A DNA stretch of 23,553 nt from positions 1 to 23,553 of IMG/VR virus record IMGVR_UViG_3300044981_000124; one strand, written 5' to 3'. Below the pieces are notes generated by a model. It was not told the DNA's origin and did not search any database. It saw nothing but the letters and a program-made list of their open reading frames with translations. Positions 945 through 23,553 of the stretch are shown piece by piece; within the stretch, counting starts at the first letter, position 1, and each line of letters begins with the position of its first letter. The stretch is from a virus. A program made the translations under genes and the position numbers.

Positions 945-1457
945 ATGCGGGACCGGAACTACTGGGGCGAGGAGTCCAATCCTGATTGTTGGATCTATCC
1001 ACCTCCAGTCTGTGGTCCCGAGATCCCGACGCGCTTTTCTCGCAAGATGCGCCGTGGAGACAGCATCTACTTTCTCAACGCGATTTGGCAGAACATCATC
1101 ACGGGGCAGCTCTTCACTCTTCCGGTGACCGATCCCATTCTGTCACCGCCCCCCAACTCCATCCCGTTCAACCTCACGGGATGTGAGATCTGGTACACCG
1201 CGAAGCTCAACACTCCAGATCCCGACGTAGCCGCTCCCATCGAGCTGAGTAACATGGCGCTCGGTGGTATCACCGTGACGTCGGCCGTTTCAGGAGCATT
1301 CACGGTGCTGGGTTCCCCGTTCCTCACGTCACTCTTCCCCGACAGCCGTGTGCGACTGAACGCGGATCATCAAGTCAAAGATTCCACGGGACGTGTCTCG
1401 ACAGTTGAAGTAGGACATCTGGACGTCTATCCGGACATCACTCGCAACACCACTTGA
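945..1457 (+). CDS. Putative virion/baseplate-type beta protein
   Basis: A 170-residue protein. After a Pro/Cys-rich start it shows a pattern seen in N-terminal domains of phage baseplate or tail-fibre proteins: GDSIYF, then a run of beta strands, FNLTGCEIWYTAK, and later a polar LNADHQVKDSTGRVSTVEVG segment. That general layout (a G-D pair followed by an LTG-x-x-I/V-x-x-T-A-K strand) recalls BppU/DUF2479-like domains, but I cannot confirm the family. It lies in an accessory block upstream of the portal gene, away from the tail module. Its stop overlaps a possible TTG start of the next ORF, though I prefer a later start for that gene. A role as a virion or host-contact component is inference. 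Confidence 0.7.
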   Translation: MRDRNYWGEESNPDCWIYPPPVCGPEIPTRFSRKMRRGDSIYFLNAIWQNIITGQLFTLPVTDPILSPPPNSIPFNLTGCEIWYTAKLNTPDPDVAAPIELSNMALGGITVTSAVSGAFTVLGSPFLTSLFPDSRVRLNADHQVKDSTGRVSTVEVGHLDVYPDITRNTT

Positions 1458-1468
1458 AGAGGATTCCC

Positions 1469-2362
1469 ATGCCCGATTTTCCCTCCGAAGCTCCTACGAA
1501 GAGTGATCGTCCGCCCAGCAAGATCGTGACCCGACTGTCGGGGTTGATCACTCCGAAGGGGTTCGGACTCGGGTACAAACCCGACACCCACGACAAGAGC
1601 AAAGATCTCCCGGCACGCGGTCTCTTCGGTGCTCCCATGCGCCTTGCGACAAGCGCATCGATCGCGCAGTACGCGTCGATCTATGACCAGGGACAGACCA
1701 GCTCGTGCACGGGATGGGCGTTCGCTCAAGCGATCAAGGAGCGATGTGAGATCGCGGGTGCCAAGATTCCGCTGCCCAGTCCAGAAGCTCTCTACCTGTT
1801 CGGTCGCGCCATGGCGCGTCAGCTCGCGGGGCAGACACCGGAAGATGCGCCGCTCACGGACAGCGGTGCACAACCGTATCTGGTCGTGCAAGGGATGAAC
1901 GAGTGGGGATGCCCGTCCATCAACGAGTGGCCGTTCGATCCCAAGACGATCGACAACGAGCCCGACCTCGAAGAGTTGGAGTACGCGTCCCAGTTCCTCA
2001 TCCAGCACTGCACGCGCATCTCCAGCGAGGGTGCGGGCCGTCTACTCGACATCCGCACGGCGATTGCCAGCGGCTACCCGGTCATCATCGGCACCTCGGT
2101 CGATCAGGCGTTCGAGGACTACGCGGGTGGTAAACAGAAGAACGGCCTACCCAAGGTCGTGACTGCACCCAATCCGGCGAACATTCTCGGTGGACACATG
2201 ATGCACCTCGTGGAGTACACTGCTCAGGGACTCTTCCGAGGCGTCAATCAGTGGGGCACGTCGTGGGGAGACAACGGCTACTACTGGGCCGACGAAGCGT
2301 TCGTCACCACGGACGCGATGACGGACATCTACGTGCTGGCGTGCAACGCGTCGGGACACTGA
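1469..2362 (+). CDS. Papain-like (C1A) cysteine peptidase
   Basis: A 297-residue protein with the full catalytic layout of papain-family peptidases. DQGQTSSCTGWAF places the oxyanion-hole Gln at 74 and the nucleophile Cys at 80. GGHMMHLV carries the catalytic His at 243, and NQWGTSWGDNGYYW carries the Asn at 260. The spacing (Gln six residues before Cys; Asn followed by x-W-G) is the family standard, so an active peptidase is expected. There is no signal peptide; the first 50 residues are polar and may be a short pro-region or a virion-targeting tail. I chose ATG 1469 because GAAGAGGA lies at the right distance upstream; a TTG at 1454 overlapping the previous stop is possible. The substrate is unknown: host surface protein, virion protein, or lysis target. 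Confidence 0.88.
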   Translation: MPDFPSEAPTKSDRPPSKIVTRLSGLITPKGFGLGYKPDTHDKSKDLPARGLFGAPMRLATSASIAQYASIYDQGQTSSCTGWAFAQAIKERCEIAGAKIPLPSPEALYLFGRAMARQLAGQTPEDAPLTDSGAQPYLVVQGMNEWGCPSINEWPFDPKTIDNEPDLEELEYASQFLIQHCTRISSEGAGRLLDIRTAIASGYPVIIGTSVDQAFEDYAGGKQKNGLPKVVTAPNPANILGGHMMHLVEYTAQGLFRGVNQWGTSWGDNGYYWADEAFVTTDAMTDIYVLACNASGH

Positions 2363-2372
2363 AAGGACCACC

Positions 2373-2684
2373 ATGAAAGCTCTTCTGTTCGTGTGTCTGA
2401 CGGCTTGCGCCGCGTGTCCCTCAAGCACCCCCAATCCCCCGCCTACGACGGTCCCAGAAGCGTCCGTAGCGCTCGAAGGCTCGGACGTCTGTGCTCATGC
2501 ATGCGACGTTCTGAGAGCCGCCCAGTGCCCGGAAGGGTTCACCGTGGATGGCGGGGAATCTTGCGAGGTCGTGTGCCGTCATGCGCAGCAAGGCGCGTTC
2601 GACATCAAGCCCGCGTGCATTGCAGCGGCGACTAACGCGGCTCAAGTGCAGAGCTGTGGCACTGTTCGTTGCGCACATCCCTGA
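2373..2684 (+). CDS. Small cysteine-rich lipoprotein
   Basis: A 103-residue protein starting MKALLFVCLTAC, a short hydrophobic signal ending in a perfect lipobox L9-T10-A11-C12. The signal is shorter than usual (11 residues). After a Pro/Thr linker the mature part has eight further cysteines in a regular pattern (CAHAC, QC, SC, VVC, AC, SC, RC), enough for four disulfides, implying an oxidising compartment such as the periplasm or cell surface. AAGGA precedes the ATG. It lies 10 nt after the peptidase gene and directly before the lysozyme-like gene, so it may act with them at the envelope. Spanin-like or superinfection-exclusion roles are conceivable but unsupported by sequence. Confidence 0.72.
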   Translation: MKALLFVCLTACAACPSSTPNPPPTTVPEASVALEGSDVCAHACDVLRAAQCPEGFTVDGGESCEVVCRHAQQGAFDIKPACIAAATNAAQVQSCGTVRCAHP

Positions 2685-2706
2685 CGGCATAACGGGGATA
2701 ATGAAC

Positions 2707-3750
2707 ATGGATTCGGACGAAGTGCTTCAACCCACGCAGTTTGCGATTACGGGAATGCGTCGTGCATTCTCGGACGAAGCCGGCGTACCACTCGCATCAC
2801 ACGTGGGAGCCGCTGATCCGGGTCCTCGGTGGGCTGCAAAGGCTACCGCGTTCACTGCCGGATGGACGGACACGTTCTCCGGTGAGTTTCCGAGTCTCTG
2901 GTGTGTCGCGCTCGGACTTGCAGTCGCGCAACACGAGACTTATTGCGGCGATGCGTGGGCGGGTGAACACAATTGGGGTGGTGTTCAGCTCGGTGGGCTC
3001 AACGCAGACGAGAAGAAGTGCCTCGATGACGCCGGTATCACTCCGACTCCTCAGAACGTTCCCGCGGCGCGTGCAGCACTCGCGCTGCACGGGCTCACAC
3101 GTGCGGGAGGAGCGCTTCATGTCGACTCGTCACCGACGAACGGAGGCTTCCGCTACTTCACGTGGTTCGCTGCGTTCTCTACGGATGAAGCGGGAGCTGC
3201 GCACTTCATTCACGTGCTCGATGCTAACCGTTTAGGCTGCAAGGCTGCGATGGTTGGCGCAGTGGGCGCGTGGAAGACTGACTCCGTTGCGCTTGCGTCT
3301 GCGATGTACAAGACGGGGTACTACGAAGGATTTCACGATCCCAAACTTCCCGGTGGTGCCGACGCCAACATCGCGGACTATGCGTCGGCGATCTACGGAC
3401 TCGCACCGGGCATCTACGCCAATCTCGCTGCACAAGGTTGGACCCCTTCCCCTGGTCGTCCCATCTTCGACTTGACCAGTGTGATGGGCTACCAGTCGGC
3501 GCTTACCTACCTCGCTGGCAAGCTACGGAACCACGCGTTTGATCCTCTCGGGGTCGACGGAGTCCTCGGCCCCAACACCGTCAAAGCGATCACGGAGTTC
3601 CAGAAGGAACAGGCGATTCCCATCAACGGACTCATGAACGATCAAACACTGAACATGCTCAAGTATGCGCTCAGCATTGTTCCTGATGATGGTGTTCAGG
3701 CGTTGTCGAACACGAGCCCTGCACCCGAAATGCCGGTGGCGAAGTCGTAA
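2707..3750 (+). CDS. Lysozyme-like protein with C-terminal peptidoglycan-binding domain
   Basis: A 347-residue protein. Residues about 65-135 include LGLAVAQHETYCGDAWAG followed by EHNWGGVQ, which resembles the active-site start of lysozyme/glucosaminidase folds (candidate catalytic Glu77, with Glu87 nearby and an N-W-G motif). Residues about 261-322 look like a PG_binding_1 domain: GVDGVLGPNTVKAITEFQKE, then PINGLMNDQTLNML. This implies peptidoglycan cleavage with wall anchoring, as an endolysin or virion-associated muramidase. No signal peptide is visible. ATG 2707 sits 8 nt after GGGGA; ATG 2701 in the same frame is too close to that site, and longer upstream extension would overlap the lipoprotein gene in a shadow frame. 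The exact bond cleaved is unknown. Confidence 0.78.
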   Translation: MDSDEVLQPTQFAITGMRRAFSDEAGVPLASHVGAADPGPRWAAKATAFTAGWTDTFSGEFPSLWCVALGLAVAQHETYCGDAWAGEHNWGGVQLGGLNADEKKCLDDAGITPTPQNVPAARAALALHGLTRAGGALHVDSSPTNGGFRYFTWFAAFSTDEAGAAHFIHVLDANRLGCKAAMVGAVGAWKTDSVALASAMYKTGYYEGFHDPKLPGGADANIADYASAIYGLAPGIYANLAAQGWTPSPGRPIFDLTSVMGYQSALTYLAGKLRNHAFDPLGVDGVLGPNTVKAITEFQKEQAIPINGLMNDQTLNMLKYALSIVPDDGVQALSNTSPAPEMPVAKS

Positions 3751-5416: not shown

Positions 5417-6631
5417 ATGACGGTTTCGTCCTCTCTCGCGTTCACTCAGGGGCTCCAAGTGGGCGCACCGGGTGTGGCGATCATCGGCGTCGATGGAACC
5501 GCGGTAGTTGCCAGCAATGGCAACAATGCGAACGTCGTCACGTGGACGTTCGCTATGGTCGATGTGCCACCTGGGAGTGCGCTTCCGATTGGTATAGTGC
5601 AGACCGGTTCATCCCCCACGTACACATTCACTCCTGACATCACGGGTGGGTATCTGTTGGAGCTGACGGTGTTCGATTCGTCGGGTAATTTCGCGATCGA
5701 CTACCGCACATTTCAAGTTCCGGAGACAAGCGGACGCATCATCGTTCCCTTCAAGGGAACAGACGCTTCCCTCAACTTCATCATCTCCAGCGTAATGAAT
5801 CTTCGTGGTTGGGCGCCTTTCCAGGGCGCTTACGACAAGGAAGTGGACCTTCTTTCGTTAGGTGGAGGAGTTCTTGCGGGACTTCCCACGCGTGGGCTCA
5901 CTTCGTTCTTGATCGCGGACAACGGTGTCTTCAACAACGCGGGTGCTGTTACCGAGTGGTCTGATCAAGCTCCTTCCCAAGCTGGAAAGTTTTGGTCGAC
6001 GGTGGCTTCGGGGTCTAATCCCGCGGCATTCAACGCGAGTGGTTTCAATAGCAAGGCGACGATCGACTTCCTTGAGTCACCGTCGCAGAGCCAGTTTCAA
6101 TTCTTCTTCTCATCGCTGAACGCAGAGGGCTACTTCTGCGCTCCCACTGAATTTACGATTGCGGCGTGCTTGCAGTACACGGGAACAAAGAATTTCGCGA
6201 CCAATATGGTTTGCCCGTTCCTCTTCGCGGCAACGTCCAACAACCCAGCAACGGGATGCGGGCTTGTGGTCGGATTGGACCCCGGCAACTCGAACAACGT
6301 GATCTTTGCGGTCTTCGCGAACGACGGAACACTCAAGTACGCGGAGAGTGCAAGCGTCCCCACCAATGTGGCGCACTACGTTGTAGTTACATTTAGTGGT
6401 GGAGTGCTTTCGATCTACCTGGATGCAAACGCCGCAGTGACACAAGGTAGCGTCGGATTCATCTCTCCCACGACTGGGCTCAGCGCGCCGGTGGGTATCG
6501 GAGCTGGTGGTGTGTCGTCAAGCCAGTGTTTCGAAGGTCACATCAAGTGCATCGGAGCGTGGTGTGTTGGGCAAACTGCGGGAGAGCTTGCTCAGACGAA
6601 GGCATTCATCAAGGCGGCGGGTGGGTTGTGA
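5417..6631 (+). CDS. Ig-like plus LamG-like protein, putative adhesin or tail-fibre component
   Basis: A 404-residue protein. Residues about 15-100 look like a PKD/Ig-like domain: VVTWTFAMVDVPPGS, then YTFTPDITGGYLLELTVFDSSG, the ordinary strand pattern of such folds. Residues about 215-400 fit a concanavalin-A/LamG-like jelly roll: FTIAACLQYTG, NNVIFAVFANDGTL, VAHYVVVTFSGGVLSIYLDANA and GHIKCIGAW. Together they suggest carbohydrate or surface binding in a virion fibre or head decoration. GAGGAG precedes ATG 5417. It sits upstream of the portal gene rather than after the tape measure, where tail fibres are usually found, so head-fibre attachment is also possible. The fold assignments are by pattern only. 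Confidence 0.7.
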   Translation: MTVSSSLAFTQGLQVGAPGVAIIGVDGTAVVASNGNNANVVTWTFAMVDVPPGSALPIGIVQTGSSPTYTFTPDITGGYLLELTVFDSSGNFAIDYRTFQVPETSGRIIVPFKGTDASLNFIISSVMNLRGWAPFQGAYDKEVDLLSLGGGVLAGLPTRGLTSFLIADNGVFNNAGAVTEWSDQAPSQAGKFWSTVASGSNPAAFNASGFNSKATIDFLESPSQSQFQFFFSSLNAEGYFCAPTEFTIAACLQYTGTKNFATNMVCPFLFAATSNNPATGCGLVVGLDPGNSNNVIFAVFANDGTLKYAESASVPTNVAHYVVVTFSGGVLSIYLDANAAVTQGSVGFISPTTGLSAPVGIGAGGVSSSQCFEGHIKCIGAWCVGQTAGELAQTKAFIKAAGGL

Positions 6632-11823: not shown

Positions 11824-12672
11824 ATGTCAGGTAAAGCAGACGAGACGGTTGAAACCAAGGTCACTCCGAAGACCGAGGAAGTTGTTGTTCCGAAGGTTGA
11901 GCCGAAGGTCACTCCGAAGGTCGAGACCAAGACCGAACCGGAGACCAAGACCGAGCCGAACAACAAGCTCAAGCGAGCGCAGATCTCGATCGAGGACGAG
12001 ATTCCGGAGGACGCGGAGCTTCTGGAACTGTCCAAGACGGCGCTCAACAGTCGCCTGAAGCGTCACACTTCGCGAGAGCTGCGCGAGCGATTCGGCACCG
12101 ACGACACTGCTGAGATCAAGAAGAAGCTCGATCGACTCACGGCGCTCGAAGCCGAAGAGGAGACCCGTAAGCGCGAGGCGATGAGTGAGAAGGAGCGGCT
12201 CGAAGCCGATCTTCGCCAAGCACAGACACGTGAGGAAGAGCTGAACCGCCGTCTCCGCATGGCGGACAACGAGCGCGTGGTCAATCGCGAGGACACTCGC
12301 ATCACGAAGATCGCTCACAAGCACATCGAGCAAGACGAAGACACCACCGAGGTCGTCTTCCGGCGCTTCGCGACGTTCCTCAAGTCGGAGTACAGTGAGG
12401 AGCTGAAGGACCCCAACTTCAACGTCCCCGACAAGGAGATCGACAAGTGGTTCAAGGAGTATGCAAAGGAACATCCCAAGCATGCTCGTGAAGCCAAGTC
12501 GCAAGTCGAGAAGGTCCCTCTCAACAACGGGGCTCAGGGTAGCAACAACACGCCTTCGGCGGAGAACAAGAGTGGCACCAGTCAGGCCACCAACTTCTCT
12601 CCATCAGGCCCCAACGCAATGTCTCGGCAAGACGCCAAGGCGGCGGCTGGGAAGCTCGGTTACAACTGGTAG
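11824..12672 (+). CDS. Capsid scaffolding protein
   Basis: A 282-residue highly charged protein directly before the major capsid gene, the usual place of the scaffold. Residues about 10-47 are a Lys/Glu/Pro/Thr repeat region (KVTPK, KVEPK, KVTPK, KVETK, then TEPETKTEP); the matching DNA has a 15-nt direct repeat AAGGTCACTCCGAAG. Residues about 98-160 are a strong coiled coil (LEAEEETRKREAMSEKERLE and onward). The C-terminus is a polar linker ending MSRQDAKAAAGKLGYNW, a likely coat-binding tail. It would line the procapsid interior and leave before or during packaging. No protease domain is fused to it. GGAGG at 11813-11817 supports the ATG. Confidence 0.8.
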   Translation: MSGKADETVETKVTPKTEEVVVPKVEPKVTPKVETKTEPETKTEPNNKLKRAQISIEDEIPEDAELLELSKTALNSRLKRHTSRELRERFGTDDTAEIKKKLDRLTALEAEEETRKREAMSEKERLEADLRQAQTREEELNRRLRMADNERVVNREDTRITKIAHKHIEQDEDTTEVVFRRFATFLKSEYSEELKDPNFNVPDKEIDKWFKEYAKEHPKHAREAKSQVEKVPLNNGAQGSNNTPSAENKSGTSQATNFSPSGPNAMSRQDAKAAAGKLGYNW

Positions 12673-17054: not shown

Positions 17055-17119
17055 TTTGTGGTACCTCTAGTCACAATTCGAAGTGAATGCGGCATGCGCC
17101 GCCCGAGGGAGTAGGAACT

Positions 17120-17827
17120 GTGACGGCACCGAAGCAAACCGAAGACTTGATCAAGGTGCGGTGGGAGCCGCATGAGGATCAGATCTTGGTTGAGCTTTGG
17201 CCGGATGGAACCGTCCCCGAGATCTCGGCGTCACTTCCAGGGCGTACGATTCGTGCGTGCGCGAGCCGAGCACGAGTGCTGGGTATCAAGTGCACGAACC
17301 GCCAGCACTTGAACAAGGTCGTCAGTCCCGTCTTCATGCGCGAGGGAGTACCTGGGAAGTTCTGTACTGGTCCTTGTCGCGAATGGCTTCCTCTGGAGAA
17401 GTTTGGGCGTCACCAGACATGTGCTGGTGGGCGACGAAACATCTGCTCTACCTGTGAAGGACGTCGTGCCTACGCAAACAACCCCGAACAGAAGATTGCC
17501 CATGTTCGTGCCTATCAAGTTCGTCACCCGGAGAAACATCGCGTTCATCAGCACAACGCGAGTGTTCGTCGCAGAGTTCTGACGGGTCCGAAGTCAGGAC
17601 CACACGGAATTACGACGGGCGATCTGAAGCTGCTTCGTGATCTCTTTGGAGACTTGTGTGTGTACTGTGGTGATCCCGCGGACACACTCGATCATGTCGT
17701 TCCCCTGACTCGTGGTGGTGAGCATTCGATTTCGAATCTCGTTCCTGCGTGTCGTCCCTGCAACAGTTCTAAACACGACAAGCTGTTGAGCGAATGGAGC
17801 GGCCGTCGAATGCCGCAGGAGAAATAG
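17120..17827 (+). CDS. HNH endonuclease with N-terminal Myb/SANT-like HTH
   Basis: A 235-residue protein. Residues about 15-55 ([16 protein letters not shown], then [14 protein letters not shown]) resemble a SANT/Myb-like DNA-binding helix-turn-helix. A zinc-type C-x3-C ... C-x(n)-C-x2-C follows ([27 protein letters not shown]). The C-terminus is a classic HNH nuclease: C180-x2-C183, D191-H192, N206, C211-x2-C214-N215, and K218-H219. It would nick or cut DNA, most likely as a free-standing homing endonuclease. GTG 17120 is preferred because GGGAGTAGGA lies just upstream; an in-frame ATG at 17087 is weaker. It ends 3 nt before the sheath gene. Confidence 0.85.
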
Positions 17828-17830
17828 GTT

Positions 17831-20434
17831 ATGGCCGCTTCTTTCGTGAGACGTTTCTTGAGCGACCCTGGGAACGGGATCCTTCTCAACATCGAGTCCG
17901 TCAACATCCTCGACCTTCTTCCCCCTGGAAGCATCGCGGGGATCGGAACTGGGACGGTCCTGATCGTTGGGGAGTTCGAGGACGGTCCTTTCAACGTCGC
18001 AACGCAAGTCGCAGACATCACCGATCTGACGAACAACTGGGGAGGGCAGATCGGCTACACCTACAGCGGCGTACCGGGCAACAATCCGTGCGCGGTCGCA
18101 CGCTTCGCGGACCAAGCTGTCTTTGCCGAGTATTGGAACGGCAATGCCGCGATGCAGCTCAACGGCAAGCAGTTCGCCGAGCTTGTCGTGTGCCGTGTGA
18201 ATACTTCCGTGGGTAACGTTCAGTTCACGGCACTTCCCTTCATCACGGGTAATGCTGCGTTCCGCTATACGCTCGCTGCAAACCAAGTCCTCGGTCTCGA
18301 CGTCGGTGCGGGTCCTCAGACCGCGACGTTCACGGCCACGGCTGCCACCGTGACAAGCACCGCGGGCACGTACGCGTCTGAAGCCGCTGGCGACACACTG
18401 ACGTTGGGCTTCGATGCACAACCCAACTTCACCGTGACGTTCCAAGCGGGTGACACGACACAAGCGAACATCCTTGCACGCATCAACCAGTTCGCCGGCT
18501 TCACATGCGCAGCAACAGTCACGGGTACGACGTTCTCTCTGACCGGATTGCAGCAAGGCAACCAAGGTCAGGTGCGTGTCATCAGTGGAAGCTCCGGCGT
18601 TCTGACGTACCTAGGTCTCACCGCGGCCACAACGTTCGGCACTGGCAACGTCGCCAACATCAATCAGGTGACCCCTGCGGAGATCACTGCGGTCGTTCAA
18701 TCGGCAATCTCGAACACGCTCGTACAGATCGATCAGAACAACGCGCTGCGCATCTCCAACACACTGGGGACGCAGAGTGCCTATGTGCTGGTGACGTCGG
18801 CAACGACAGCCACAGCTCTCGGTTTCGTTGCAAACCAGATCGGTACACAACTCGGTGTTGCCGGGTTCGTGAGCGCAGCGGGTACGTACGCGCTCGGTAC
18901 GTCCGGTACGTTCGTGATGTCCTACGACGCGGTGGCTCCGTTCACGGTCACCCTTACGTCCACGTTTACGATCGCGCAGACGGTCTCAGCGATCAACGCT
19001 GCGGCGGGTGCCACCATCGCGTATGCCGACAGCACGGTTCGCATCGCGATCATCGGCAAGGCACCGGGCGGCAACATCAACATCATCAGTGCGAGCGTTC
19101 CCGCAGTCCTCACCGAGATCGGATTCGTGGTCGGTCTCACCAACGGAGTGGCGCTTCCGCAAGGAACTATTCCGGCGGGTACGGTCGTACAGACGGCCAA
19201 CGCGGGCACCGTCTTCGTGACGATGCAGTCCGTGATCTTCGGGTCGGCAGGTTCGCCACTCGCGTCCACGGTCGGCGGTGTGTCGCAACCCACGGGTGTC
19301 ACCATCGGTGGCGTTCCTGCACCTCTGACGGGTCCGTGGATCGTTCCCATCCGCCACGCGCTCGACAACACGTTGGGCGTTCTCGCGGGTGCAGGAACTA
19401 TTTCCTCGATGCCCACGTGTCCTCTCCTGTTCTCGCTTGCGGTCACCAACCTGATCGCGACGACGGCGGCGCTCACGGACTCCCAGATCGATGCTCAGTA
19501 CGTGACTGCACTCGCGGCGACGACGGCGATCAACACCGTCTCCAAGCTCGTCAACATCGTCTACTCCGCGCGTCAGTCGAACACGCTTCGAACCCAACTG
19601 CGCACGAATGTGCAAACGGCCAGCGCGGGCGGCTGCTACGGGCGCGTCGCGTGCGTGCGTCCTCCGCTCAACACACTCGAAGCCAACGCTCTCAGTCTCG
19701 CGGGTGCACCGGGCGTCGGTGCATCGAGCGATCAACGCGTCATCTACTGCTACCCCGGCGCGTCCACGTTCGTTCCGACTGTGGCACTCCGTGGCACTGC
19801 GGGTGGACTCGGCTTCACACCTTCGGGCAACGTGGACGTCGGATCCGATGGGTTCATGGCGTCACTGCTCTCCCAGCTCAACCCGGAAGAGAACCCGGGT
19901 CAGGAGACGACGTTCACGGGTGGCGTCGTGGGCATCGAGTCTGGTGCCAACGTCCAGAGCTTCACGATCAACGACTACATTCTGTTCAAGGCGGCGGGCA
20001 TCGCGGCTTTGCGCATGGACAGGGACACCGGGGTCGCGATCTTCCAGTCGGGTGTCACCAGCGTCAACCCACTGGTCTACCCCCAGCTCACGCGCATTTC
20101 GCGTCGGCGCATGGCGGACTTCATTCAAGACAGTCTCGCTCAGCTCTGCGTAGCGTTCGGGAAGCGTCTGTCGACCAACGCACGTCGCAAGGCCATGGTG
20201 GTGGAGATCAAGAGCTTCCTCGAACAGCTCTTGAACCGGTCCAACCCGGCGGCGCAACGAATCGGTGGCTACTCCATCGACACCGTTTCGGGGAACACTC
20301 CCACGACGCTCGGACTCGGAATGTTCCGAGTCACCATCTCCGTGCAGACGCTTTCGTCCTTGGACAGCATCGTGCTGGCCACGGTCATCGGCGAGCAAGT
20401 CTCGGTTCAGGAGCAGTTGCCGCAAGCCGCTTGA
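17831..20434 (+). CDS. Tail sheath protein, enlarged
   Basis: An 867-residue protein. The N-terminal part (IESVNILDLLPPGSIAGIGT; TVLIVGEFEDGPFN) and the C-terminal part (QSFTINDYILFKAAGIAALR; PLVYPQLTRISRRRMADFIQ; GKRLSTNARRKAMVVEIKSF) have the features of contractile tail sheath subunits. The middle is an insertion of about 270 residues with repeated beta modules. Two longer copies begin AGTYASEAAGDT (about 178-268) and AGTYALGTSGT (about 351-441), each running through I-N-x-x-A-G to a terminal L-G-L/I-G-F; a half-copy lies between (about 276-345, ending TATALGF). The pattern resembles the flagellin hook IN motif. Most sheaths are about 400-700 residues. The tube gene follows, as expected. 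Confidence 0.88.
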   Translation: MAASFVRRFLSDPGNGILLNIESVNILDLLPPGSIAGIGTGTVLIVGEFEDGPFNVATQVADITDLTNNWGGQIGYTYSGVPGNNPCAVARFADQAVFAEYWNGNAAMQLNGKQFAELVVCRVNTSVGNVQFTALPFITGNAAFRYTLAANQVLGLDVGAGPQTATFTATAATVTSTAGTYASEAAGDTLTLGFDAQPNFTVTFQAGDTTQANILARINQFAGFTCAATVTGTTFSLTGLQQGNQGQVRVISGSSGVLTYLGLTAATTFGTGNVANINQVTPAEITAVVQSAISNTLVQIDQNNALRISNTLGTQSAYVLVTSATTATALGFVANQIGTQLGVAGFVSAAGTYALGTSGTFVMSYDAVAPFTVTLTSTFTIAQTVSAINAAAGATIAYADSTVRIAIIGKAPGGNINIISASVPAVLTEIGFVVGLTNGVALPQGTIPAGTVVQTANAGTVFVTMQSVIFGSAGSPLASTVGGVSQPTGVTIGGVPAPLTGPWIVPIRHALDNTLGVLAGAGTISSMPTCPLLFSLAVTNLIATTAALTDSQIDAQYVTALAATTAINTVSKLVNIVYSARQSNTLRTQLRTNVQTASAGGCYGRVACVRPPLNTLEANALSLAGAPGVGASSDQRVIYCYPGASTFVPTVALRGTAGGLGFTPSGNVDVGSDGFMASLLSQLNPEENPGQETTFTGGVVGIESGANVQSFTINDYILFKAAGIAALRMDRDTGVAIFQSGVTSVNPLVYPQLTRISRRRMADFIQDSLAQLCVAFGKRLSTNARRKAMVVEIKSFLEQLLNRSNPAAQRIGGYSIDTVSGNTPTTLGLGMFRVTISVQTLSSLDSIVLATVIGEQVSVQEQLPQAA

Positions 20435-20466: not shown

Positions 20467-20928
20467 ATGACCGCGTTTCTCACAACTCAGAATCCGTCCC
20501 AGCGCATCAAGGGACAAGAAGTCACCGTCCTCGTTACACAAGGCGGTGTCCTTCAAGACACGCTGACGGACATCCAGTCCTTCGAGGTGGAAGCACAGTT
20601 CGAGATCAAGTCCATGGGCTACCTCGGTGAGGTGTCCAACCGGAAAGACGAGATCTACAACGGGTGCAAGTTCACTATGGAGCTTCACCTCCACACTCAG
20701 GACTGGTTCAACTTCCAGCAACAGATCAAGAACAAGGCTCAGCGTCTCTCGCCAAACCTGATCTTCAACATCTCCAGCGTGCTCAGCTTCCCCAACGGGC
20801 AGACACCGTCGCTCACGATTCCCGACGCACACTTCGGGCCGAACCCGCTGAGTATCTCCAGCCGTGGCGACTACGTGAAGGTGAAGCTCGAAGGTGAGTC
20901 TTCGGACTTCGTTCTCCAACTGACGTAA
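20467..20928 (+). CDS. Tail tube protein
   Basis: A 153-residue protein directly after the sheath with a strong AAGGAG. It shows the tube-type layout of beta strands with a central amphipathic helix: TDIQSFEVEAQFEIKSMGYL, then RKDEIYNGCKFTMELHLHTQ and WFNFQQQIKNKAQR, then GDYVKVKLEGESSDFVLQLT at the end. Hexamers would stack to form the inner tube around which the sheath contracts. Length and gene order (sheath, tube, chaperone, tape measure) match typical myoviruses. The following region is structured and convergent with a reversed gene, so this may be the last gene of its transcript. Confidence 0.85.
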   Translation: MTAFLTTQNPSQRIKGQEVTVLVTQGGVLQDTLTDIQSFEVEAQFEIKSMGYLGEVSNRKDEIYNGCKFTMELHLHTQDWFNFQQQIKNKAQRLSPNLIFNISSVLSFPNGQTPSLTIPDAHFGPNPLSISSRGDYVKVKLEGESSDFVLQLT

Positions 20929-21039: not shown

Positions 21040-21393
21040 TTACTGTTTCAGTGCATCGAGTGCTGCCGTGACGCGATCTGTCTCCTCGTGAAGCTCGACG
21101 AGTCGCGCACGTAGCGCGTTGCGAACGTCGTCGTAGGCGACACTGAATTCGAACGTGGGGAGTTCGATCTTCAGTGAAGTGCCGTTCGTCTTTGGTGCGG
21201 TCTTGAGCGTACCCTTGTGTGCGTAGAGACGCGCTGTCTTCGGCCCAGTAGAGACCACGATTCCCTTCTTACGAAGTTCGTACAGCGTTGTCTTCACGGT
21301 GTTGAGCGGAGCGCGGATCCTCATAGCGATTACTCGCGCCGCGTGTGGTCCGAATTCTTTCAGGTAGGTCTCGATTCGTGCAGCGGTTGTCAT
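21040..21393 (-). CDS. Winged-helix DNA-binding regulator, only gene on the - strand
   Basis: A 117-residue protein on the opposite strand to all neighbours. Residues about 4-57 form a winged-helix-like domain: ARIETYLKEFGPHAARVIAM, then LNTVKTTLYELRKKGIVVST with the recognition helix (NTVKTTLYELRKKG) and a wing (IVVSTGPKTARLYA). Residues about 88-117 are a long helix (VRNALRARLVELHEETDRVT), likely for dimerisation. This suits a small transcription factor. GGAGAA lies upstream of the ATG at 21393; longer starts are possible but lack this signal. Structured sequence lies after its stop and a divergent gap before its start, so it looks like an independently transcribed insert (moron). Targets unknown. 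Confidence 0.75.
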   Translation of the reverse strand: MTTAARIETYLKEFGPHAARVIAMRIRAPLNTVKTTLYELRKKGIVVSTGPKTARLYAHKGTLKTAPKTNGTSLKIELPTFEFSVAYDDVRNALRARLVELHEETDRVTAALDALKQ

Positions 21394-21496
21394 GATGGTT
21401 CTCCAGGTTGATCGAGTTATGCCGCTCGACTCATGCGGTAAAGAAGTTGTCTCGCGTGCCGTAGGCGCGTAGGTATCTCGGTAAGGAGGACAGATC
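21394..21496. promoter_or_regulatory. Divergent intergenic region between regulator and Pro-rich gene
   Basis: This 103-nt gap separates the - strand regulator from the + strand gene at 21497, so it should hold divergent promoters or a regulator promoter with read-through from the left blocked. An imperfect direct repeat CGAGTTATGCCG (21413-21424) / CGACTCATGCGG (21427-21438), 9 of 12 identical, lies next to the regulator start and could be an operator. Clear -10/-35 pairs are not evident. Confidence 0.35.
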
Positions 21497-21772
21497 ATGA
21501 GAACCAAAACTACCCAGCCACCCCCGCCGCCGTCCGATGCTCAGGTCCCTGTGACCGAAGAGGATGCAGCTCCGGTACATGCTTCGATGAAGCTCGGCAC
21601 TCCTGTCCACACGATCGGCGATGCACAGGATGTCGTCGTTACCCCGGATCCTCAGAGTCCACAGCCCGATCCGCAGACGTCGACTGATCCGGCACCGTTC
21701 CTTCCACTCTCAAACCCCGGACTCACTCGGGAACAAGCGCTGGTGTTGGAAGCACAAGGACGTCCCCGGTAA
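21497..21772 (+). CDS. Small Pro-rich protein
   Basis: A 91-residue low-complexity protein with a strong AAGGAGG before its ATG. It is rich in Pro, Asp, Gln and Thr (TTQPPPPPSDAQVPV; VTPDPQSPQPDPQTSTDPAP) and ends in a short helix (LTREQALVLEAQGRPR). No fold or family is recognised; it is probably disordered. It comes before a hairpin terminator and the gp10-like gene. A good ribosome binding site and a long clean frame support it being real. Confidence 0.58.
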   Translation: MRTKTTQPPPPPSDAQVPVTEEDAAPVHASMKLGTPVHTIGDAQDVVVTPDPQSPQPDPQTSTDPAPFLPLSNPGLTREQALVLEAQGRPR

Positions 21773-21782
21773 AGCGCATTTC

Positions 21783-21822
21783 AAGGCCAGAGGCTTCCAT
21801 CACGTGTGGGGCTTCTGGCCTT
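21783..21822 (+). terminator. Hairpin terminator-like structure
   Basis: AAGGCCAGA (21783-21791) pairs perfectly with TCTGGCCTT (21814-21822), and the stem can extend inward through GGCTTCC against GGGGCT with G-T pairs, leaving a short loop. It begins 11 nt after the stop of the Pro-rich gene. The tail (GCTGCGTTTG) is only mildly T-rich, so termination may be partial. It argues against the longer start at 21806 for the next gene. Confidence 0.6.
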
Positions 21823-21847
21823 GCTGCGTTTGTGGCACTCTATCGAG

Positions 21848-22393
21848 GTGCCCGGGAAGTCGATCACGATCTTCGAAGCACCCAAGTGGGTGCAAAACCT
21901 GAGCGACGATATGCGTGAGGCTGCACTCAGGGGAGTGCAGAGCGCCGCGCTAAGGCTGCTACAGCACGTCCAAGTGACCGTTATACCGGCGACCAAGGAC
22001 GAAAGGACCGGTATGGGGCCACCGGTCGATCGGGGCGCTTATAGGGCATCCTGGCGCAAGCGCAACGTATCCAACGGGGCAGTGGTCGAGAGCACTCTCC
22101 CCTATGCTTCGATCATCGAGTTTGGCGCGCGCCCTGAGAACGTCAAGATCGGGCGAGAGATGATCGACGCACTTACGGAATGGGTCATCCGCAAAGGACT
22201 CGCCGGGAAGTCGGACAGTAGTGTCGAGTTCCGATCCCAAGCACGCAACATCGCGTGGGCCATTGCTGTATCGATGAAGAAAGCGGGCATCTTTTCAGGC
22301 GGTAAGGGACTGCGCGTGCTCGAACGCGCGTCCGTCGAAGTGCCGCGATTCATCAAAGAGGAAGTGACACGTGAGATAGAACGTCTAAAGTGA
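21848..22393 (+). CDS. HK97 gp10-like tail/neck protein
   Basis: A 181-residue protein resembling the HK97 gp10 family of small phage tail-completion proteins. The key stretch is PPVDRGAYRASWRKRNVSNG (the D-x-G-x-L/Y-R-x-S-W strand), followed by STLPYASIIEFGARPENVKI (the Y-A-x-I-x-E-F-G hallmark), then amphipathic helices (ARNIAWAIAVSMKKAGIF) and FIKEEVTREIERL. It would act at the head-tail junction or the tail tip during assembly. GTG 21848 is chosen because the longer start at 21806 lies inside a terminator hairpin; it has no good ribosome binding site, and ATG 21911 is an alternative. Unusually, it lies after the tube gene rather than before the sheath. Confidence 0.75.
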   Translation: MPGKSITIFEAPKWVQNLSDDMREAALRGVQSAALRLLQHVQVTVIPATKDERTGMGPPVDRGAYRASWRKRNVSNGAVVESTLPYASIIEFGARPENVKIGREMIDALTEWVIRKGLAGKSDSSVEFRSQARNIAWAIAVSMKKAGIFSGGKGLRVLERASVEVPRFIKEEVTREIERLK

Positions 22394-22448: not shown

Positions 22449-23075
22449 ATGACCATGCCGATCACAGAAGAGCCGTTGACTCCCGAGGACGCTCAGAGAG
22501 TAGGAACCACTACCGGCGCTCAGTCGTTCGCAGAGATCGCCGCGAAGGCGCAAGCGGGACAGGAGCAAGCCGCTGACCTTCAGGACGAAGGCATCGAGCC
22601 GAAGGATGATGTCCTCGGTCCACTTCCTCCGTGGGCGCTTCCACTTCCTCCGGAGGTGAAGCTCCCAGTCGGACGACAGATCTACGTCATGCGGTTCCGC
22701 GCAAAGATGACAGAGACTCCGAAGCTCGGCGACCGGTACTGCATCTTGTGGAGCCTCACCGAGGCCGACGAGAAGCTCGCGTATCGTCGCACGCGTGGCG
22801 AAGCCACCATGGCACTCAACGAGCTGTCCAAGCAGATGATCCGCGTCGTCGGCTTCGTGCGAGTGGACAGTGCTGGAAAGGAGTCGGCAGAGGGAGCGCT
22901 CACTGACTGGACGAACGGTCCAGGCATCGGTGGTATCGCGCGATTCTGGGACGCGATCGGTGCTCGCTGCAAGATGCAAGTCAAGAACGCCTACGCCAAG
23001 CTCCACACGATGGAGGTTCCAGACATCGTCGATTTTTTTACCAACTGTGTCGCTGTTCGAACCGTGAGTGGTTGA
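22449..23075 (+). CDS. Tail assembly chaperone, upstream (G-like) product
   Basis: A 208-residue protein just before a second overlapping ORF and the tape measure gene, the standard place of tail assembly chaperones. The N-terminal 60 residues are acidic and polar, then a compact domain (LPVGRQIYVMRFRAKMTETP; DRYCILWSLTEADEKLAYRR; STRGEATMALNELSKQM-like helix) and a C-terminus VPDIVDFFTNC. GGAGA supports the ATG. Near the end, GAT TTT TTT A (23031-23040) provides a T7 slippery run. A -1 shift there joins this frame to the next ORF, making a longer fusion of about 302 residues, as with lambda G/GT. The chaperones are thought to bind the tape measure during tail assembly. Confidence 0.78.
   Translation: MTMPITEEPLTPEDAQRVGTTTGAQSFAEIAAKAQAGQEQAADLQDEGIEPKDDVLGPLPPWALPLPPEVKLPVGRQIYVMRFRAKMTETPKLGDRYCILWSLTEADEKLAYRRTRGEATMALNELSKQMIRVVGFVRVDSAGKESAEGALTDWTNGPGIGGIARFWDAIGARCKMQVKNAYAKLHTMEVPDIVDFFTNCVAVRTVSG
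23033..23039 (+). other. Predicted -1 ribosomal frameshift site (T TTT TTT)
   Basis: Seven T's fall exactly in the X XXY YYZ register of the chaperone frame (codons GAT TTT TTT ACC). Re-pairing one base back enters the frame of the next ORF at TAC (23039-23041) with no stop before 23354. An 8-bp stem with one bulged G follows: GTTC-G-AACC (23055-23063) and GGTTGAAC (23070-23077) with a 6-nt loop, 15 nt after the slippery run. The arrangement matches frameshift signals of phage tail chaperones, though the spacer is longer than the usual 5-9 nt. Confidence 0.72.
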
Positions 23076-23356
23076 ACGGCGACGGTTGTTTCCCGCTAGA
23101 CCCCGATCTGCTCTACGATCGGCTCAACAAGGTCACCTTCCACCGCGATGCACCGATCGATGCCTTCTGGCACTACCTCATCGACTTCGTTCCCGACGAG
23201 ATGCTTCAGATGCGTGTCGAGCAAAAGGTCTACCTCTCTCGCTACGCACGCATTCCTCCGGACTACTGGGAGAATCGTGAAGTCTTGGAGATGCGCCAGT
23301 ACCTCGAAGCCACCGGCAACCTCGTGAAACGTGAGAACAGTCCAGTGAGAGACTAA
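23039..23356 (+). CDS. Tail assembly chaperone, downstream (T-like) frame
   Basis: This frame is open from the slippery site to TAA 23354-23356 and encodes 105 residues after the shift (YQLCRCSNREWLNGDGCFPL, then DAFWHYLIDFVPDEMLQMRV and IPPDYWENREVLEMRQYLEA). It overlaps the end of the upstream chaperone. Its only start candidate near the overlap is TTG 23072 with a weak upstream signal, so translation as the -1 fusion is more likely than independent initiation. The mostly helical, aromatic-rich product is like the T part of G-T chaperone fusions. Its stop overlaps the tape measure ATG (TAATG), so the genes are coupled. Confidence 0.68.
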   Translation, partial: YQLCRCSNREWLNGDGCFPLDPDLLYDRLNKVTFHRDAPIDAFWHYLIDFVPDEMLQMRVEQKVYLSRYARIPPDYWENREVLEMRQYLEATGNLVKRENSPVRD

Positions 23357-23553
23357 TGGCGGAGCACGAAGGTACAGAGATCCACGCGAAACTCGTCCTC
23401 GACGAAGAGGCGAAGGAAGCGACCGAACATCTCAAGGAGGGGTTCGAGTCGATCGGGGAGAAGGTTCACGAGATCCAGCACGAGATGATGGAGTTGGTGA
23501 AGACGACACTTGCTGTCGCCGCGGGTTTCGAGTTGGACAGGGGCATCGAGTCC
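23356..23553 (+). CDS. Tape measure protein, N-terminal part (3' partial)
   Basis: The frame starts at ATG 23356, overlapping the chaperone stop, and stays open for 66 codons to the window edge. The visible part is helical and charged (LVLDEEAKEATEHLKEGFES; KVHEIQHEMMELVKTTLAVA), ending in a hydrophobic helix, as in tape measure N-termini. It would fix tail length by extending along the tube and later pass into the host. The call rests on position after the chaperone pair and on the helical start; most of the protein lies outside the window. Confidence 0.75.
   Translation, partial: MAEHEGTEIHAKLVLDEEAKEATEHLKEGFESIGEKVHEIQHEMMELVKTTLAVAAGFELDRGIES

Follow-up and report, generated by a model that had tools for sequence, protein, structure and literature searches.

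Upstream of a putative tape measure gene in an uncultured contractile-tailed phage, a reading frame of 208 codons is overlapped by a second one in the -1 register, and the question arises how the second frame is translated. The window analyzed here (the whole stretch of DNA under study) is a 23,553-base IMG/VR virus record, a structural-gene fragment with a GC content of 0.59. The original prediction proposed a -1 frameshift at a run of seven Ts in a tail assembly chaperone gene of this window. That proposal is borne out by a conserved slip site, a conserved domain in the -1 frame, a covarying stem and a tape-measure-like ORF next to them. We consider it very probable that this is a tail assembly chaperone gene of the G/GT type with a signal for -1 programmed ribosomal frameshifting. 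As judged from sequence, two forms of a tail-building helper protein are almost certainly made through a backward slip of the ribosome on the T run. The features on which the argument draws are as follows.

17831-20434: tail sheath gene, assigned through the sheath of a distant relative (clade B) that resembles an annotated tail sheath
20467-20928: tail tube gene (phrog_365, E 0.011)
21806-22393, plus strand: HK97 gp10-like/Neck1 tail completion gene, between the tube and chaperone genes
22449-23075, plus strand: zero-frame ORF with an ATG start, encoding a short tail assembly chaperone-like (G-like) protein of 208 aa
23012-23017, plus strand: Shine-Dalgarno-like GGAGGT, 15 nt upstream of the slip site
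23033-23039, plus strand: slippery heptamer T_TTT_TTT (-1 shift site), in the register GAT TTT TTT ACC
23039-23356, plus strand: -1 extension, 105 aa after the slip plus a TAA stop; T-like domain of the long form
23042-23088, plus strand: stem-loop of ~19 bp with a minimum free energy of -25.2 kcal/mol, from folding and a covariation test
23042-23046/23084-23088: outer stem, 5 bp
23049-23058/23074-23083: main stem, 10 bp, beginning 9 nt past the heptamer
23060-23063/23070-23073: upper stem, 4 bp
23073-23075, plus strand: zero-frame stop TGA, inside the 3' arm of the stem
23356-23553, plus strand: next gene, a putative tape measure gene with its ATG at 23356, truncated by the contig end

The gene neighbourhood is that of a contractile tail. 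The annotated match of the distant relative's sheath is the tail sheath of Alicyclobacillus phage MMB025 (3e-6). The order is sheath, tube and chaperone pair, followed in relatives by a large ORF; in the window, the neck-like ORF and two small ORFs separate the tube gene from the chaperone gene. Only 198 bases of the putative tape measure gene are covered by the contig. Among the relatives, an ORF of ~480-810 aa begins within ~25 nt of the -1 stop in most cases, and its size and position suggest a tape measure protein.

Several other ORFs of the window are of note in their own right. Immediately 5' of the sheath gene lies an HNH endonuclease ORF (17087-17827, plus strand; E 1.4e-12), possibly a free-standing homing endonuclease, and a 155-aa ORF on the opposite strand (21040-21507, minus strand), with no Pfam match, sits between the tube gene and the chaperone region. 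A papain-family cysteine protease-like ORF (Peptidase_C1, E 3e-5; 1454-2362, plus strand) is found amid the structural genes, a type of gene that tailed phages do not usually carry. Two further plus-strand ORFs, one with a peptidoglycan-binding domain (2548-3750) and one resembling a Laminin_G_3/ConA-like lectin (5417-6631), are possible lysis and receptor-binding genes.

Searches of Pfam and PHROGs with both parts of the predicted protein found no meaningful named family. An AlphaFold2 model of the upstream ORF, for which 44 homologs served as input, reached a pLDDT of 96, and its top fold match in the PDB was the HK97 tail assembly chaperone 2ob9, a weak match (E 1.1, prob 0.38, TM 0.51 on the target, 8% identity). 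Matches among viral structures include several phage tail assembly chaperones, for example that of Bacillus phage Gemini (prob 0.98). Gene order and the weak fold match of the modelled protein thus support its identity as a tail assembly chaperone. By sequence, the extension also matched 8fje 'E8' in the PDB (7.5e-13), but we discounted this hit: its score adds up four poor copies of a short repeat, whose independent E-values all exceed 0.1.

Direct searches of IMG/VR with either ORF retrieved no relatives, and no matches to cultured phages were found for the window's sheath or ORF. Since the ORF searches came back empty, the tail sheath (17831-20434) was taken as bait, which recovered 64 IMG/VR loci and a further 3 from bacterial metagenome-assembled genomes. 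With a profile built on the upstream ORF, homologs were recognized in 51 ORFs of the sheath-related loci, and in 3 more in bacterial bins. Once near-identical copies and one homolog cut by a contig end had been dropped, 47 distinct junctions (the window plus 46) were left; the first 44 fell into a near group (clade A, n = 20) and a far group (clade B, n = 24).

Apart from the heptamer at 23033-23039, no run of A or T in the window reaches seven bases, and direct reading confirmed both the predicted coordinates of the heptamer and its exact slippery register. Conservation of the heptamer in relatives had been proposed as a check on the prediction, and a slip site was indeed found at the same position in all 47 junctions examined, as a heptamer or as a tetramer. 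The form U_UUU_UUN is present in 30 of the 47 (window included), ending in a pyrimidine in 17 and in a purine in 13. Two junctions have a lambda-type G_GGA_AAR heptamer in place of the T run (G_GGA_AAA in L020, at 11843-11851, and G_GGA_AAG in L068, near 7670), and 15 have a tetramer alone, namely U_UUU followed by C in 14 and U_UUC in L034. An in-frame T_TTT_TTN was found in 28 of the 44 junctions tested, as compared to 6 occurrences in 183,664 other codons of the same loci.

The choice of T_TTT codons at 42 loci has a joint probability of ~10^-64, given the encoded amino acids, the codon usage of each locus and independence, the true value being less extreme because the loci are related. The slip-site residues differ (DFF, AFF, HFL, RFL, SFL, GFL or NFL) while T_TTT stays constant; residues neighbouring the site vary among Asp, Ala, His, Arg, Ser, Gly, Asn, Phe, Tyr and Leu, and in several high-GC phages Leu at the site is coded by TTA, which accounts for 1% of Leu codons. 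Varying neighbours, a constant T at the third position and a rare TTA for Leu argue that the nucleotides themselves are under selection, and on these sequence grounds chance synonymous codon choice is excluded as the cause of the conservation. The spacing to the zero-frame stop is ~25-46 nt from the start of the slip site as a rule; in L016, L018 and L019 it is 76-91 nt, and there the stem closes ahead of the stop.

The -1 frame of the window is open from 22907 to the TAA at 23354-23356, whose last base belongs to the ATG of the next ORF at 23356. After a one-base back-slip, this frame reads TAC CAA CTG and onward, and the predicted fusion comprises 197 + 105 = 302 aa. Near the junction, the -1 frame offers a single start, a TTG at 23072, which overlaps the zero-frame stop and is unconserved. 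The -1 ORF has no good start of its own and ends at the putative tape measure ATG, both as originally predicted. Relatives share no conserved -1-frame start, the starts being scattered or absent, and in many no start occurs from the slip site to 60 nt beyond the stop.

The -1 frame encodes a conserved domain. A downstream-domain profile trained on clade A matched the -1 frame in 22 of 23 clade B loci (E 1e-13 to 0.004), and one trained on clade B matched it in 19 of 20 clade A loci (E up to 0.04), whereas in the same cross-clade searches the zero and +1 frames gave no match better than E 0.1. The domain has a conserved RY core in both clades. For the tetramer-bearing members a +1 shift was considered and dismissed: in many of them the +1 frame soon meets a stop, and it is the -1 frame that holds the domain.

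The hairpin downstream of the heptamer had been described as a bulged stem of 8 bp. A hairpin is present, and its size had been underestimated (~19 bp). The z-scores of the window hairpin range from -4.2 to -4.9 against dinucleotide shuffles; in comparison with coding windows from this contig its p value is 0.007, and it lies below 99% of those of similar GC. The zero-frame stop falls within the stem, as had been noted. Among relatives, the stem has its 5' arm a few nucleotides past the slip site; its 3' arm coincides with the zero-frame stop or follows it closely, and the sequences of the arms differ. An arm-swap test showed that a junction's own arms pair better than swapped ones, with P 0.0002 in clade B and P 0.0002-0.0016 in clade A, depending on the interval; the test is conservative under relatedness, and differences in GC between genomes could add slightly to the effect. 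The nearly identical L053 and L058 differ at a stem pair, T-A being replaced by C-G. The z-scores from 60-nt dinucleotide shuffles, taken alone, gave no hairpin signal in clade A (mean z -0.28), and it was the arm-swap test that was positive there. By these comparisons of sequence, the stem arms covary across the relatives. Thus, the conservation of the stem, another check that had been proposed, was found in both clades, except that no convincing stem was found in three clade A members, L006, L011 and L012.

The Shine-Dalgarno-like GGAGGT at 23012-23017 may help frameshifting. Complementarity to the anti-Shine-Dalgarno sequence peaks in an 8-nt window ending ~7-13 nt upstream of the site and is above the coding background in both clades, but not above synonymous recoding. 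Because the encoded amino acids suffice to account for the enrichment, no selection is claimed for this stretch.

Could the two frames be joined, or expressed apart, in some other way? Homopolymers are error-prone in some sequencing technologies, so that an error in sequencing or assembly might have split one continuous gene at the T run. The original prediction itself had named such an error as a possible refutation. Independent relatives refute it: the two-frame layout recurs in 47 distinct junctions from many samples, most of them without a T7 homopolymer, and neither covarying stems nor a conserved slip site would be expected from an error, which leaves this account with a negligible probability. 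Alternatively, the -1 ORF might start by itself and yield a separate protein, for example by termination-reinitiation at the TTG at 23072, which in the window begins one base ahead of the stop codon and has a GTG as its counterpart in L030. That start is unconserved, however, and many relatives have none near the junction; separate expression would also leave unexplained why a slip site ~25-90 nt upstream of the stop is conserved at the nucleotide level. We regard it as most improbable.

An edited mRNA would give the fusion as well. If RNA polymerase slipped on the T7 run, standard translation of the product would yield the long protein, and poly-U runs are able to induce polymerase slippage (PMC4066793); the run in question is, moreover, the only one of that length in the contig. 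Yet the relatives have T6 followed by C, A or G, T4 followed by C, or GGGAAAR, and all the same keep the register and the downstream frame. Polymerase slippage is not favoured on runs so short and mixed, which do, however, follow the rules of tRNA re-pairing, and a covarying stem better suits a stimulator of ribosomes. Transcriptional slippage is therefore quite unlikely, and a programmed ribosomal frameshift remains by far the preferred reading.

Site, register, hairpin, conservation, covariation and -1-frame coding are all established at the level of sequence, and from them we infer the slippage itself, its rate and the roles of both proteins. According to this model, most ribosomes would pass T_TTT_TTT and terminate at the TGA at 23073, giving the short chaperone of 208 aa. 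A fraction would be paused by the stem-loop at 23042-23088, and in these the tRNA-Phe in the P and A sites would slip back by one base and re-pair perfectly with UUU UUU. The slipped ribosomes would then add 105 residues from the -1 frame, so as to produce a 302-aa long form that ends at the start codon of the tape measure gene. If the roles are those known from lambda gpG/gpGT, the tape measure protein would be covered by the short form, and the added domain of the long form would bring in the tail tube.

The frameshift is new for this phage family and ordinary in kind, being a member of the known G/GT type. Less ordinary are a covarying hairpin that absorbs the zero-frame stop and a slip site whose type has switched repeatedly. 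On the sheath tree, the class of the slip site changes at least 15 times, with at least 6 switches between tetramer and heptamer. Relative to their own genomes, hairpins at tetramer-only junctions rank stronger than those at heptamer junctions (median p 0.09, as compared to 0.23 for heptamers in clade B and 0.30 in clade A; one-sided Mann-Whitney 0.009 overall and 0.037 within clade B), a comparison that is a lead only, because it was made post hoc and clade is a confounder. Two sister loci, L049 (U_UUU_UUG, -13.8 kcal/mol) and L050 (U_UUU_CUC, -20.9), differ in the same direction. Perhaps, and we put this forward tentatively and with some doubt, as the site switched between heptamers read by two tRNAs and a tetramer read by one, lineages with the weaker tetramer kept or gained a stronger covarying stem and so held the rate steady, a weaker slip site being offset by a stronger hairpin. 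The family forms a natural experiment, with different slip sites and hairpins at the same junction, and could reveal how evolution keeps a frameshift ratio constant. Our findings extend tail-chaperone frameshifting to a large uncultured myovirus family, whose long form would be missed by ordinary annotation because cultured relatives are almost lacking and its proteins match no family.

Several known systems invite comparison. The lambda heptamer is of the G_GGA_AAG type, from which the U_UUU_UUU of the window differs, though the lambda type does occur at the same place in L020 and L068. The window otherwise resembles lambda gpG/gpGT in having a putative chaperone pair that adjoins the putative tape measure gene and a predicted -1 shift, and its extended form is presumed to be of low abundance, as in lambda (PMC5009743). 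To the HK97 chaperone (PDB 2ob9), the likeness is a weak one in predicted fold, with no sequence similarity. Among efficient motifs in E. coli are U_UUU_UUY heptamers; the best tetramers there are A_AAG and then U_UUC and U_UUU, and the U_UUY/A_AAG tetramer with the pseudoknot of the IS3 family was shown to shift (PMC4066793). The 15 tetramer-bearing distant relatives, with U_UUU or U_UUC and in most cases a downstream stem, are similar to this IS3-family case, although the latter concerns an IS transposase rather than a tail gene, and the window has a full heptamer.

A close parallel is P2, in whose tail operon (FETUD) E/E+E' is expressed by a -1 frameshift at TTTTTTG (PMC3091744). The proteins differ in size (208/302 aa in the window, 91/142 in P2), with no detectable relation in sequence, and the downstream hairpin is absent in P2 and its Burkholderia relatives (PMC3091744), whereas the window has a strong, covarying stem-loop. 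On the other hand, both phages have a contractile tail and the general order sheath, tube, chaperone pair and tape measure, and a U_UUU_UUN heptamer directs a -1 shift in P2 and is predicted to do so in the window, an extension thereby prolonging the short protein (PMC3091744). The all-T heptamer had been contrasted with a more common G GGA AAG type; it is nevertheless not unusual for such genes, as the TTTTTTG of P2 E/E' shows, and the site in the window belongs to a known class.
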